Shown piece after piece: positions 3,338 to 7,997 of a stretch of 64,000 nucleotides of DNA (its first letter is position 1; every line of letters starts with the position of its first letter). The stretch is taken from positions 1-64,000 of the forward strand of contig JAFGHS010000036.1 in assembly GCA_016930075.1 (NCBI GenBank), in the 5' to 3' direction. This stretch comes from Deltaproteobacteria bacterium. Its GTDB lineage: Bacteria > Desulfobacterota > Syntrophia > Syntrophales > JAFGHS01. Both the position numbers and the translations under genes were made by a program. The notes beneath the pieces were generated by a model. The model searched no databases. It was given only the letters and a program-made list of their open reading frames with translations, and had not been told where the DNA came from.

Positions 3338-3411
3338 AAGAGAATATTCGTTCGTCGTTCGGGACGCCCTTAAGTTTTTAAGTTGTTCCTCCATCATCGC
3401 GCTACACCACT

Positions 3412-3472
3412 ACTAACTTAAAATCTTAAGGATGTCCCCAAGGACCCAAGGGTCTCCGTAAGTGGGTTAGGA
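3412..3472 (-). other. Possible degenerate attC site at the 3' end of the array
   Basis: Read on the minus strand, TCCTAAC and GTTAG lie 55 bases apart and can pair. Inside them TCCGTAAG-like and CTTAAGGA-like boxes on the plus strand pair with one mismatch. Position and orientation fit an attC for the zinc-ribbon cassette, but boxes are weaker than in the other two sites. Confidence 0.4.
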
Positions 3473-3475
3473 CTT

Positions 3476-3862
3476 CTATCTACACTGCTTAGCCGAACCG
3501 TGATCTTGGTGATCTGTTAACGGTTCTCTGACTTCTTTAATGACTTTCCCTGTTTTCACATCTTTAATAACCTCAATATAGAGATTGTTATCACGATCTA
3601 TTACGCGTTCCAAATGACGCCATTCAATCTCTTTGACGTAGAAATCCGCGCCGACTCGAGCATCGAAAAAGGGTTTTCCTTTTCCTTCATGCTTTCCTTT
3701 CATACGCATATGGTCATAAATACAGGCTTCTTCATCGAGCACTTCATCATGAATTCTTCCCTTTTCTTCACAAACAGGGCAAGGACTTCTTGGTTCATAC
3801 TTTGGTTCAGATAGGATTGCCCCGCATTTTTTGCACTTTGATACCTGATAATCAGGGTTCAT
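3476..3862 (-). CDS. Hypothetical zinc-ribbon protein (cassette gene)
   Basis: The 128-residue protein begins MNPDYQVSKCKKCGAIL and carries two CxxC knuckles (CKKC at about 10-13, CPVC at about 28-31), a short zinc ribbon. A charged region follows with repeated Lys/Glu and no recognised domain; the segment DARVGADFYVKEIEWRHLERV looks like a small beta/alpha unit. No enzyme motif is visible and I do not recognise the family. It sits alone between two attC-like sites, with its ATG 18 bases from the predicted crossover point, which suggests it is the single gene of one cassette. The function is unknown; a nucleic-acid-binding role is only a guess from the ribbon. Confidence 0.7.
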   Translation of the reverse strand: MNPDYQVSKCKKCGAILSEPKYEPRSPCPVCEEKGRIHDEVLDEEACIYDHMRMKGKHEGKGKPFFDARVGADFYVKEIEWRHLERVIDRDNNLYIEVIKDVKTGKVIKEVREPLTDHQDHGSAKQCR

Positions 3863-3875
3863 TGGTATTCCTTTT

Positions 3876-3938
3876 GCTAACGCTCGGTTTCACCGGCGCG
3901 GGGCTTTTTCCGCGTCCGCGTGGAAACCGTTGTTAGGG
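3876..3938 (-). other. attC-like site between the zinc-ribbon and HNH genes
   Basis: On the minus strand the site opens CCCTAACAACGGTTTCCAC and closes GGTGAAACCGAGCGTTAGC. The outer boxes CTAAC/GTTAG and inner boxes CGGTTTC/GAAACCG pair, with unequal spacers leaving unpaired bases, and a GC-rich centre. The TAACAA...GCGTTAG layout is the canonical attC pattern and orientation. The site lies three bases after the upstream stop codon and 14 bases before the downstream ATG. Confidence 0.75.
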
Positions 3939-3940
3939 GA

Positions 3941-5062
3941 TTACAATGTCAGTTCCTCGAACCGACTGGTTGAGTCCTTGAGAGTCAGCACTCTTATGCC
4001 ACCGTAACCCAACGTGCCATGAGTTGCGTAGCAATATTCAAATAGCAGGATATCCTCGACTCCATCACCGTTAAAGTCCGCCCGAACGACCTCGATCAAT
4101 TGCTGTCCCATGCCCTCATGCTCTTCGATCACAAGAAGGTTATGCGTGATGCGACGCACTACCAACGTGCCATCGGCGATTTTGCTCTGGTAGGTTGGGT
4201 TCGTGTCAGAAGATTCAGGTTCCTCCCCCATATAGGGAAACAAAGAGAACGGAAGCAGATGGAGGTCTACAATGCCGACTCTTGGGTCGGCAATGTGGCT
4301 GACATTGGGCGTGCTCGCGGCCTCAAGGGCTTTGAGCAGGCCACATTGATGCTCAAAAAACGTCGCCATTTTGATATCGAACGTCGTGAGTGCGAAATAA
4401 CCCGCCTCAATCGCAGCGTCATACTCCGTGCAGCTTCTGACATGGATTTGCTCGTCGGCGTCATTGGTGAGAGTGACTCCATCTATATCGTCATTTCTCC
4501 CAAGCCTTATGGGTCTGTTTCTCAATTCTGCTATATCAGCCTTCGCGACCGTGTGGACTTCTGAGTCAGCAAACTTCATTCCCTCTATCAGTTTGAATAT
4601 CTCAGCGGGCTGGTCGACGTACTCTTCCAAAATTCGGACGACCTCGTCGGGCGAAAGCTCTCCCCGCTCAAGGCACTGCTGCAGCAAGATAAGGGCACGG
4701 CCTCGGTTCTTTCGCTGCTCTATTCGGGCGAGATGGCCTTGAACTAAGGCCTTCTTGCTCGCAGCAAGAGCAAGAAAATAGTGAATGGGAGCGGGCTCCA
4801 AGATTACTGAGCCCTTCTGCAGGTTAATTCCCGGCTTACAAGGAAGGAGATTTTCAAACCCCGTGAGTTCGAATTTGTCATCCAAACCCAACTGGGCCTT
4901 CGTCCGGTTCAACTCGTCTGGGCTGTCGGCGAGCTTCTCGGGCAGGACATGATCTATGTGGAAGCTGCTTACGTCTATTAGTTCTCTCGTGTAACCGCAC
5001 TTCTTTTCGTGCGCCAACCAGATGGCTTCTCGTTCTGTCGCCGTAAATCTTTGATCCGCCAT
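3941..5062 (-). CDS. HNH endonuclease-like protein (cassette gene)
   Basis: The 373-residue protein has an N-terminal HNH-type pattern: an early Cys (EKKCGYTREL, about 21-30), then FHIDHVLPEKL (about 34-44) and ENLLPCKPGINLQKGS (about 70-85), matching the H-H...N...N/H order of the beta-beta-alpha-metal nuclease fold. It lacks the paired CxxC zinc knuckles that many HNH proteins have. The rest is unrecognised; the C-terminus contains DFNGDGVEDILLF, an Asp-rich loop like FG-GAP or EF-hand calcium sites. The gene is flanked by attC-like hairpins, and its ATG is 22 bases from the predicted crossover, so it looks like a cassette gene. A nuclease role in defence or mobile DNA is plausible but unproven. 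Confidence 0.65.
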   Translation of the reverse strand: MADQRFTATEREAIWLAHEKKCGYTRELIDVSSFHIDHVLPEKLADSPDELNRTKAQLGLDDKFELTGFENLLPCKPGINLQKGSVILEPAPIHYFLALAASKKALVQGHLARIEQRKNRGRALILLQQCLERGELSPDEVVRILEEYVDQPAEIFKLIEGMKFADSEVHTVAKADIAELRNRPIRLGRNDDIDGVTLTNDADEQIHVRSCTEYDAAIEAGYFALTTFDIKMATFFEHQCGLLKALEAASTPNVSHIADPRVGIVDLHLLPFSLFPYMGEEPESSDTNPTYQSKIADGTLVVRRITHNLLVIEEHEGMGQQLIEVVRADFNGDGVEDILLFEYCYATHGTLGYGGIRVLTLKDSTSRFEELTL

Positions 5063-5078
5063 CGCTCTATTCCTACAC

Positions 5079-5143
5079 CCCGAACGACAAGCTCAGCCGG
5101 AGCGGCCCAGCGGGCCGCGATCGGCTGTAGCGACTGGTTGGGT
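5079..5143 (-). other. attC-like site between the HNH and restriction-like genes
   Basis: On the minus strand it opens with a perfect RYYYAAC box (ACCCAAC) followed by CAGTCGCTACAGCCG, has a GC-rich palindromic centre, and closes CGGCTGAGCTTGTCGTTCGGG. CAGCCG and CGGCTG pair, and the flanking CGCTA/AGCT arms pair with one extra base on one side, the asymmetry typical of attC. The terminal box GTTCGGG departs from GTTRRRY at one base. Confidence 0.75.
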
Positions 5144-5176
5144 TTTCATAACATTGCCATGTTACTTAACTTCTTC

Positions 5177-5989
5177 TTAACTACTTGCTTCTGAACCTTC
5201 TTCAATTGTATTTTCATCAGAAGTGAGATTCTTTTTAGACATTTTGCTTTTTGAAAATTTGGTTAATGCTTTATTAATTTTCTTCTTTGCTTCTTCTGCT
5301 TTTTCACCTTCAACAACTTCTCTTTTCAGGACTTCTTGATAAATGACATTTCTAATTTGATCTGACGTTATTTTTATATCAGGGGATATTTTCTTTAATT
5401 CGCGCCGGAGCAATTCTATAACGGAATCACTCATAATCATTGCGCCCAAAAAGAAACGACTTAAAGCTTGTTTTTGTGAATGGAATTCATATAACGTAGA
5501 TTTTAGCCAACCTTCCTTTGATACTAAAAATAATTTTTCAATATCTTCAGCGTTCTTGTGTGACAATTGTAGAAAATCAATTTCAAATACCATTTCTTGA
5601 TCTATTGGTTTTGTATAAGCGACTTTAAAAGCTTTCCAAATTATTCCATTTGTTAAAACGACAAAATCTATACCTTGATTTACTGCGTAATCTACTGCTT
5701 GCTTGACGTAATTATCTTTTAATTCAAGACCTATAGCTTTTACCTCTATAAATAATTGAACTTTGCCATTTATTTTTGTGGCAAGATCACAATATGTTGA
5801 ACGGATTGTGAACTCTGACGTGATTTCCGAATATTTATCATAGCCGAATATTTCTGAGAGCATGTCAGTGACGATAATTACCGTGTCTGATTCGTTTACG
5901 TCTCTTGATTTTGCATTTGTTAAGATAGTCTGGAATCTTTTAATCCCTTGGGAAAGTCTCTCACTCACTTTTTGCGGTATTGATGCCAT
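5177..5989 (-). CDS. PD-(D/E)XK nuclease-like protein related to type I restriction HsdR N-terminal domains (cassette gene)
   Basis: The 270-residue protein resembles the N-terminal nuclease domain found in type I restriction R subunits and stand-alone homologues. Conserved strands surround TYCDLATKINGKVQLFIEVK, giving Asp68, Glu82 and Lys84 as a D...ExK catalytic set. These are followed by YVKQAVDYAVNQGIDFVVLT and NGIIWKAFKV, typical of that family. No helicase motor follows. The Lys-rich C-terminus (KKKINKALTKFSKSKMSKKN) may bind nucleic acid. The gene is noticeably AT-rich beside its neighbours, a sign of recent transfer, and is followed by an attC-like site. The start ATG follows AAGGAGAAAAACT. 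DNA cleavage is an inference from fold motifs; no methylase partner is near. Confidence 0.7.
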   Translation of the reverse strand: MASIPQKVSERLSQGIKRFQTILTNAKSRDVNESDTVIIVTDMLSEIFGYDKYSEITSEFTIRSTYCDLATKINGKVQLFIEVKAIGLELKDNYVKQAVDYAVNQGIDFVVLTNGIIWKAFKVAYTKPIDQEMVFEIDFLQLSHKNAEDIEKLFLVSKEGWLKSTLYEFHSQKQALSRFFLGAMIMSDSVIELLRRELKKISPDIKITSDQIRNVIYQEVLKREVVEGEKAEEAKKKINKALTKFSKSKMSKKNLTSDENTIEEGSEASS

Positions 5990-6033
5990 AGTTTTTCTCC
6001 TTATAAATATGTTGAAATGTATTTAATATTCAA

Positions 6034-6202
6034 ACCCAACAATTAATATACACAATGCGTAAAATCCGGGTTTTTGGAAAACTCTCACCCTTGTCTGGTA
6101 TTTTCCATAAACTAATATTCAATAGAAATCAAATATTTATTATTGAAAGTATGTGTAAAATATGTTTATTATCAGAAAAAACGCATTGTGTAATATCTGG
6201 GT
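6034..6202 (-). other. Possible long attC-like structure or paired operator repeats
   Basis: On the minus strand GTTGGGT (6040-6034) is a perfect GTTRRRY box. The 12-base arms TACACAATGCGT (6049-6060) and ACGCATTGTGTA (6181-6192) are perfectly complementary, with outer ACCCA/TGGGT pairing. This could be a 169-bp attC closing the array. The same two places also match as direct repeats (AAAATCCGGGTTTTTGG and AATATCTGGGTTTTTTGG), so a regulatory repeat is the alternative. Confidence 0.35.
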
Positions 6203-6243
6203 TTTTTGGCAAACAGGGATCAGGTTTATTGAGATTCATCAAT

Positions 6244-6293
6244 GGGGTAATTCGGGTAATTCGGGTAATTCGGGGTAATTCGGGGGGTAATTC
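6244..6293. repeat. Short tandem array of G(3-6)TAATTC
   Basis: Five consecutive units of TAATTC are separated by runs of three to six G residues, ending in GGGACACTTCCC. The unit is 9-12 bp and nearly perfect. The purpose is unknown; the G-run periodicity could permit G-rich strand structure. Confidence 0.85.
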
Positions 6294-6337
6294 GGGACAC
6301 TTCCCTATTTAGGAGGGGGTACCGCCACCTTGATATA

Positions 6338-7926: not shown

Positions 7927-7997
7927 TGATAGGGGTCAGGTCTACACTCTTGACTCCGCCTGAGGCGGAGTCAAGAGTGTAGACCTGACCCCTATCA
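7927..7997. repeat. Near-perfect 34-bp-arm palindrome
   Basis: The arms 7927-7960 and 7964-7997 are perfect inverted repeats separated by TGA. Each arm contains AGGGGTCAGGTCTACACTCT next to a GACTCCGCC core. It lies 18 bp upstream of the acyl-CoA synthetase start and would form an extremely stable hairpin. It resembles REP/BIME-type elements mobilised by tyrosine (RAYT/IS200-like) transposases, by structure only. Confidence 0.9.

Follow-up and report, generated by a model that had tools for sequence, protein, structure and literature searches.

A probable decapitated chromosomal integron with three cassettes, and dispersed, mostly integrase-free attI modules in its order, Syntrophales

Integrons are described as one attI site beside one integrase gene, intI, while the clusters of attC sites known as CALINs have an origin that is argued over. 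In formal terms, a CALIN has at least two attC sites and no integrase (IntegronFinder 2.0, PMC9024848), and degraded integrons are their proposed source (PMC9024848). In Xanthomonas, the integrase was inactivated and the arrays were retained (PMC12444791). Here, we analyse a cassette island in the window, by which we mean the whole stretch of 64,000 nucleotides that was studied (C94:1-64000 of genome G000, a 3.81-Mb draft in 192 contigs that is 92% complete). Comparisons drew on 119 genomes at the level of the order and 155 at that of the class. We conclude that the island is probably a decapitated chromosomal integron with three cassettes that lost the intI beside its attI, because attI and cassettes are kept while the neighbouring intI is gone and only fragments are found elsewhere.

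Three minus-strand open reading frames occupy the island, as a sequence-only reading had proposed, and attC-like hairpins lie between them in the orientation it claimed. The hairpins were scored with covariance models from which the window sites were excluded. The first model, R1, comprises 12 attC sites of the order, taken from the other contigs of the genome, from its sister genome, and from other genomes. As R1 misses the site at 3938-3875, a second, cross-phylum model, R2, was built from 28 attC sites, of which 21 lie on integrase-bearing contigs from several other phyla. The R2 helix covaries (score 0.296, shuffles 0.119), and the covariation is lost when the partners are slid. The array reads as follows, with scores and E values that refer to searches of the window.

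3354-3445, no strand: REP/BIME-type inverted repeat closing the island, arms 3354-3384 and 3415-3445
3446-3880, minus strand: gene cassette 3, terminal, 41% GC, no attC match with R1 or R2
3476-3862, minus strand: gene of a 128-aa zinc-ribbon protein, homologues found in other genomes
3875-3938, minus strand: attC of cassette 2, R2 match of 53.2 bits, E 4e-10
3881-5084, minus strand: gene cassette 2, between attC crossovers, 52% GC
3941-5062, minus strand: gene of a 373-aa HNH-type protein, DFNGDG in its C-terminal part
5079-5143, minus strand: attC of cassette 1, R1 match at 5142-5080 of 59.4 bits, E 3.7e-17
5085-6039, minus strand: gene cassette 1, from attI crossover to attC crossover, 34% GC
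5177-5989, minus strand: gene of a 270-aa HsdR_N-type PD-(D/E)XK protein (HSDR_N_2, PF13588, 6e-7)

Both intervals that had been singled out as attC-like, 3876-3938 and 5079-5143, are significant with these models. When the whole genome is searched, the site of cassette 1 (5142-5080) is the second-best R1 match (E 2.2e-15), and that of cassette 2 (3938-3875) is the top R2 match (E 2.4e-8); the former is also matched by R2 in the window (5143-5079, 26.7 bits). Folded as single-stranded DNA, the two sites reach z scores of -2.8 (5079-5143) and -3.8 (3875-3938) against shuffles. Both are read on the same strand as the cassette genes, and the crossovers at 3880/3881 and 5084/5085 and the start-codon distances of 18 and 22 nt agree with those first reported. 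A search of Rfam gave no match for the attC sites at gathering thresholds, and BLAST of the 3938 site against plasmids returned chance matches only. On another contig of the same genome, four attC sites in one orientation lie within about 2 kb at the contig start (G000:C42:323-2365); this is a longer cassette array than any other seen in the genome.

A third attC had been proposed at 3412-3463, and this proposal fails. Neither R1 nor R2 matches there, the fold is no better than that of shuffles (z +0.55), and the GTTAG taken as its R box terminates a 31-nt inverted repeat of REP type, a unit with 10 copies in the genome versus 0 for a reversed control. A terminal attC is not demonstrable; at best a truncated left half (R'' at 3463-3469) remains beside the REP-type repeat that cuts into it and probably destroyed the last attC of the array. 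Elsewhere in the window, a near-perfect palindromic repeat at 7927-7997 (TAGGGGTCAGGTCTACACTCTTGACTCC...) has more than 10 further copies in the genome.

Among the cassette products, the PD-(D/E)XK protein shares D68, E82, and K84, invariant in 6 homologues, and helicase and methylase domains are absent from its 270 residues. The 373-aa HNH-type protein gave no Pfam match above the cut-off in its own search; its homologues match HNH (1e-4) and HNH_4 (8e-4) and have C22, D37-H38, N71, and N80 in common with it. It shares 61% identity with a Vibrio cholerae plasmid protein and 56% with a Pantoea protein. A PDB sequence search gave no match for either nuclease.

Could the three genes form a phage-defence unit, with the island as a defence array? 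Nuclease-type domains with conserved catalytic residues occur in two of the three proteins (for HNH, the match comes mainly through homologues), and a DUF4365 gene and a DNA methyltransferase gene are found close to the HNH homologue on the V. cholerae plasmid. The PADLOC matches, however, are weak (E 0.005-0.03), and with a best E of 0.005 none amounts to a match to a known defence family profile. The genes, moreover, sit in separate cassettes of differing GC content (34, 52, and 41%) and are unrelated in their occurrence. A defence unit is thus an unlikely reading; of the earlier suggestion of defence cassettes, the nuclease-like domains stand, and a defence role of the cassettes is conjectural.

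The occurrence of the cassette genes is patchy: among the 155 genomes of the class, the PD-(D/E)XK gene is found in 10, the HNH gene in 2, and the zinc-ribbon gene in 4, and none of the three is in the sister genome, G001. One PD-(D/E)XK homologue has a significant attC about 280 bp downstream (R1 E 8e-7), and two other genomes show weak attC matches directly downstream of their zinc-ribbon homologues. In the window, the island is flanked by Fe-ADH/methyltransferase on one side and a CoA-ligase gene on the other. The corresponding flanks in the sister, CoA-ligase and Fe-ADH, are 80-81% identical to these, and at that syntenic locus the island is absent, with ABC-transporter and lipase genes there instead. 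Together with sequences that diverge exactly at the crossover, the patchy genes and the island-free sister locus support the mobility that had been proposed for the cassettes.

Upstream of the first cassette, the window holds an attI and what would be the remains of an integrase-proximal region.

6034-6247, minus strand: module of attI, putative cassette promoter, and putative intI promoter, 214 bp, 76% identical to G000:C41:6572-6786
6035-6051, minus strand: attI core GTATATTAATTG^TTGGG, crossover at 6040 (G)/6039 (TT), exact pattern match
6143-6172, plus strand: promoter-like TTGAAA-18-TATTAT, a possible Pint remnant directed toward the missing intI, consensus match only
6242-6243, no strand: presumed deletion junction; in the C70 homologue the intI ATG follows 12 nt further, and here GGTAATTCGGG repeats follow

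When the attI regions of the window, of C41 in the same genome, and of the sister (G001:C56) are aligned, they match as far as GTATAnTAAnTG^TT; the divergence beyond it marks the integron crossover. The window attI joins the first cassette exactly at G^TT, and the GTTGGGT at 6040, formerly read as an attC crossover, is instead that of attI. In other genera of the order, the same core, GTATATTAATTG, is found upstream of complete intI. These observations bear on a reading of the island as an ordinary CALIN, formed by insertion of cassettes at non-specific attG sites with no attI involved. Genomic attG insertions are indeed known (PMC12901181), and they too place cassettes away from intI on the chromosome. 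Their target, however, is a divergent genomic sequence, whereas the target here resembles attI, with a conserved core and flank: ahead of the first cassette lies a 214-bp attI-homologous segment, and its core exactly matches that of attI sites adjacent to intact intI. We find this origin scarcely credible. Cassettes of the Delta-attI type in class 1 and 2 integrons (PMC12901181) resemble the island in having attI pieces separated from intI, but there a truncated attI replaces attC downstream of the gene, whereas here attI lies upstream and its flank is kept.

A perfect 12-nt inverted repeat at 6049-6060/6181-6192 (TACACAATGCGT/ACGCATTGTGTA) overlaps the attI core with one arm, and motifs resembling it also occur upstream of attI at two other loci (L068, L071); it is a possible second IntI site or regulator site. 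With this repeat at 6049/6192 in view, a MITE was considered for the attI region, but the conserved part tracks attI homology. The C41 locus (L034:5027-6810), a second intI-less attI with cassettes in this genome, stands directly beside a DinB-type polymerase gene with a GAACGTACGTTC LexA-like box in its upstream region. That attI normally lies beside dinB, as in C41, was rejected, as no dinB is near the other intI loci.

Only 403 bp separate the window attI from the CoA-ligase gene, and no intI lies between them. Positions 6190-6242 are identical over 53 bp to the start of another contig (C70:1-53), which then runs into an intI N-terminus at C70:65-343 (E 1e-28 to the sister integrase) that is truncated near residue 85. 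The homology between window and C70 ends 12-13 nt short of the intI start codon, and five imperfect GGGTAATTCGGG repeats occupy 6244-6303, right at the presumed junction. Two further fragments score above the TIGR02249 family cut-off, one without the N-terminal part at C70:23436-24203 (323 bits) and a C-terminal one at C185:2251-2850 (270 bits), and another intI remnant is on C57 (L253). An intact IntI over the TIGR02249 cut-off was not found in the contigs of this genome, only fragments; since the assembly is a 192-contig draft, 92% complete, an intact intI may be missing from it. In the sister, a complete IntI of 443 aa (404 bits) is encoded, with cassettes and attC sites of its own on the other side. 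The absence of an integrase, as first stated, therefore holds beside the array, but 'no integrase in genome' is wrong, given the fragments on C70 and C185. The two C70 fragments (L009/L035) lie at opposite ends of the contig, the N-terminal one on the plus strand and the C-terminal one on the minus strand, as might be left by an inversion with its breakpoint inside intI.

The shared 53 bp and the intI start on C70 also invite the view that the island is an assembly artefact, a complete integron split or misjoined at the attI repeat, and draft assemblies are known to inflate CALIN counts (PMC9024848). Yet the intI on C70 is itself truncated near residue 85, and the attI flank in the window leads directly into a CoA-ligase gene common to the sister. 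The C41 locus, next to the DinB gene, also combines attI and cassettes without intI, and intI-less attI sites are found in many independent assemblies, including one 940-kb contig. An artefact is thus very unlikely. C70:1 is probably an assembly-graph neighbour of the window, in which case two strain variants might exist, the intI-less joint being one of them.

How the island should be classed follows from these features. Like a complete integron, it has a first cassette joined to attI at G^TT and attC-ended cassettes in one orientation, with two attC sites recognized by two models; no intI adjoins its attI. Like a CALIN (PMC9024848), it has at least two attC sites, by our own models, cassette genes in one orientation, and no integron integrase nearby, the nearest fragments being those on C70 and C185. 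Unlike a CALIN, it keeps attI and the intI-side flank and belongs to a dispersed attI family. Its earlier description as a CALIN-type array is therefore apt as to the attC sites and the lack of an adjoining intI but incomplete, as attI had been missed; with attI present, the island is more than a CALIN. Xanthomonas integrons (PMC12444791) are similar in that the array is kept after truncation or deletion of intI and that CALINs occur at other loci. In Xanthomonas, however, intI has one ancestral place (ilvD), whereas here attI modules occupy many loci per genome, mostly without a trace of intI.

To place the window attI among its relatives, the order was searched with the core pattern GTATATTAATTGTTRGR, allowing at most 1 mismatch, with the reversed pattern as a control. 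The pattern occurs at 112 sites in 48 of the 119 genomes, compared with 2 for the control, and the most cores per genome are 13 (G110) and 11 (G086 and G095 each). Integrases are common in the order as well, with intI in 45 of the 119 genomes, and the host group is therefore not integron-poor. At the 68 distinct sites examined in detail, conservation extends over about 90 nt upstream of the core. The first open reading frame begins a median of 27 nt past the crossover. Matches to attC (R1 and R2 at E<=0.1, equal sequence amounts compared, leaving out one site whose matches belonged to a neighbouring site) lie downstream on the same strand at 31 sites, upstream at 2, and on the opposite strand at 0. 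Similarity between the downstream regions is mostly limited to stretches of 40-60 bp at attC positions. We found no description of an order with many dispersed, mostly intI-less attI modules in the open-access literature, and to our knowledge this family is undescribed so far.

A profile search of the available upstream DNA, mostly 1.5 kb (best control, 5.2 bits), found a complete intI at 5 of these 68 sites, a remnant at 5, and no trace at 58. With 58 sites lacking any trace, deletion of intI is demonstrated for a minority only, and duplication or some other dispersal is therefore needed for the remaining sites. Two congeneric species share an orthologous intI-less attI (L222/L224) with 1.5 kb of upstream sequence that is 87% identical, and the sequences differ from the crossover onward, with different cassettes. 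A helicase gene follows this attI at a distance of 148 nt; in the sister, a gene of that type is located 2 kb downstream of intI. One of the two genomes also has a partial copy of this attI together with the first ~40 codons of the helicase gene (L246), so attI modules can be copied elsewhere.

The dispersed attI copies, that of the window included, might instead be working landing pads, with one IntI encoded elsewhere or in other strains acting in trans, and cassettes would then keep coming and going at many places on the chromosome. The order would then, on a tentative view, hold distributed integrons with many attI pads, each with its own promoter and 1-3 cassettes, and cassettes spread over the chromosome rather than aligned in a single array; the single integrase acting in trans could conceivably be foreign in some cases, or later lost. 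Such an arrangement would suit G095, which has up to 11 core sites and one intI over the cut-off, and the strong conservation of the core across intI-less sites. The different cassettes at L222/L224 are also in keeping with it, but these differences could predate intI loss. Further, half of the motif-bearing genomes (24 of 48) lack an intI at E<=1e-60, including G110 with its 13 sites and G086 with its 11, and every intI found in the genome studied here is broken. We regard working pads served in trans as possible but doubtful.

According to the preferred reading, a decapitated integron, an integron integrase would have inserted the cassettes into attI at 6040/6039. The adjacent intI would have been deleted later, with a breakpoint 12-13 nt upstream of the start codon, and the attI module would have stayed before the PD-(D/E)XK, HNH, and zinc-ribbon cassettes, now fixed there, in an array that a REP-type repeat would have closed on the far side. 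As in other integrons, the attI module may also hold the cassette promoter, and its retention makes sense if it does. From these comparisons we infer the order of events, the loss of activity, and selection for a promoter-cassette unit. Across the order, the intI-less modules would stem from intI deletion, of which remnants are seen, and at least once from partial duplication, and the dispersed sites are best explained, in our view, by intI loss that left the attI/promoter module in place.

An order in which attI sites outnumber integrases and occupy many loci lets one see directly how CALINs originate, and the dispersed attI make the idea of independent landing pads used in trans testable. 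The signature GTATATTAATTG^TTRG with its upstream module, moreover, annotates the first cassette of arrays that attC-only searches leave startless.

Among the integrases encountered, some of ~440 aa carry an extra N-terminal SAM-like (PF13495) domain, so that two stand in tandem (L041:1982-3313 on G001:C56, L061-L071, L085, L086). A literature search found no description of integrases with tandem SAM-like N-terminal domains. Within the order, at least 11 genomes encode them, and they also occur on Thermodesulfovibrionales/Nitrospiraceae contigs.
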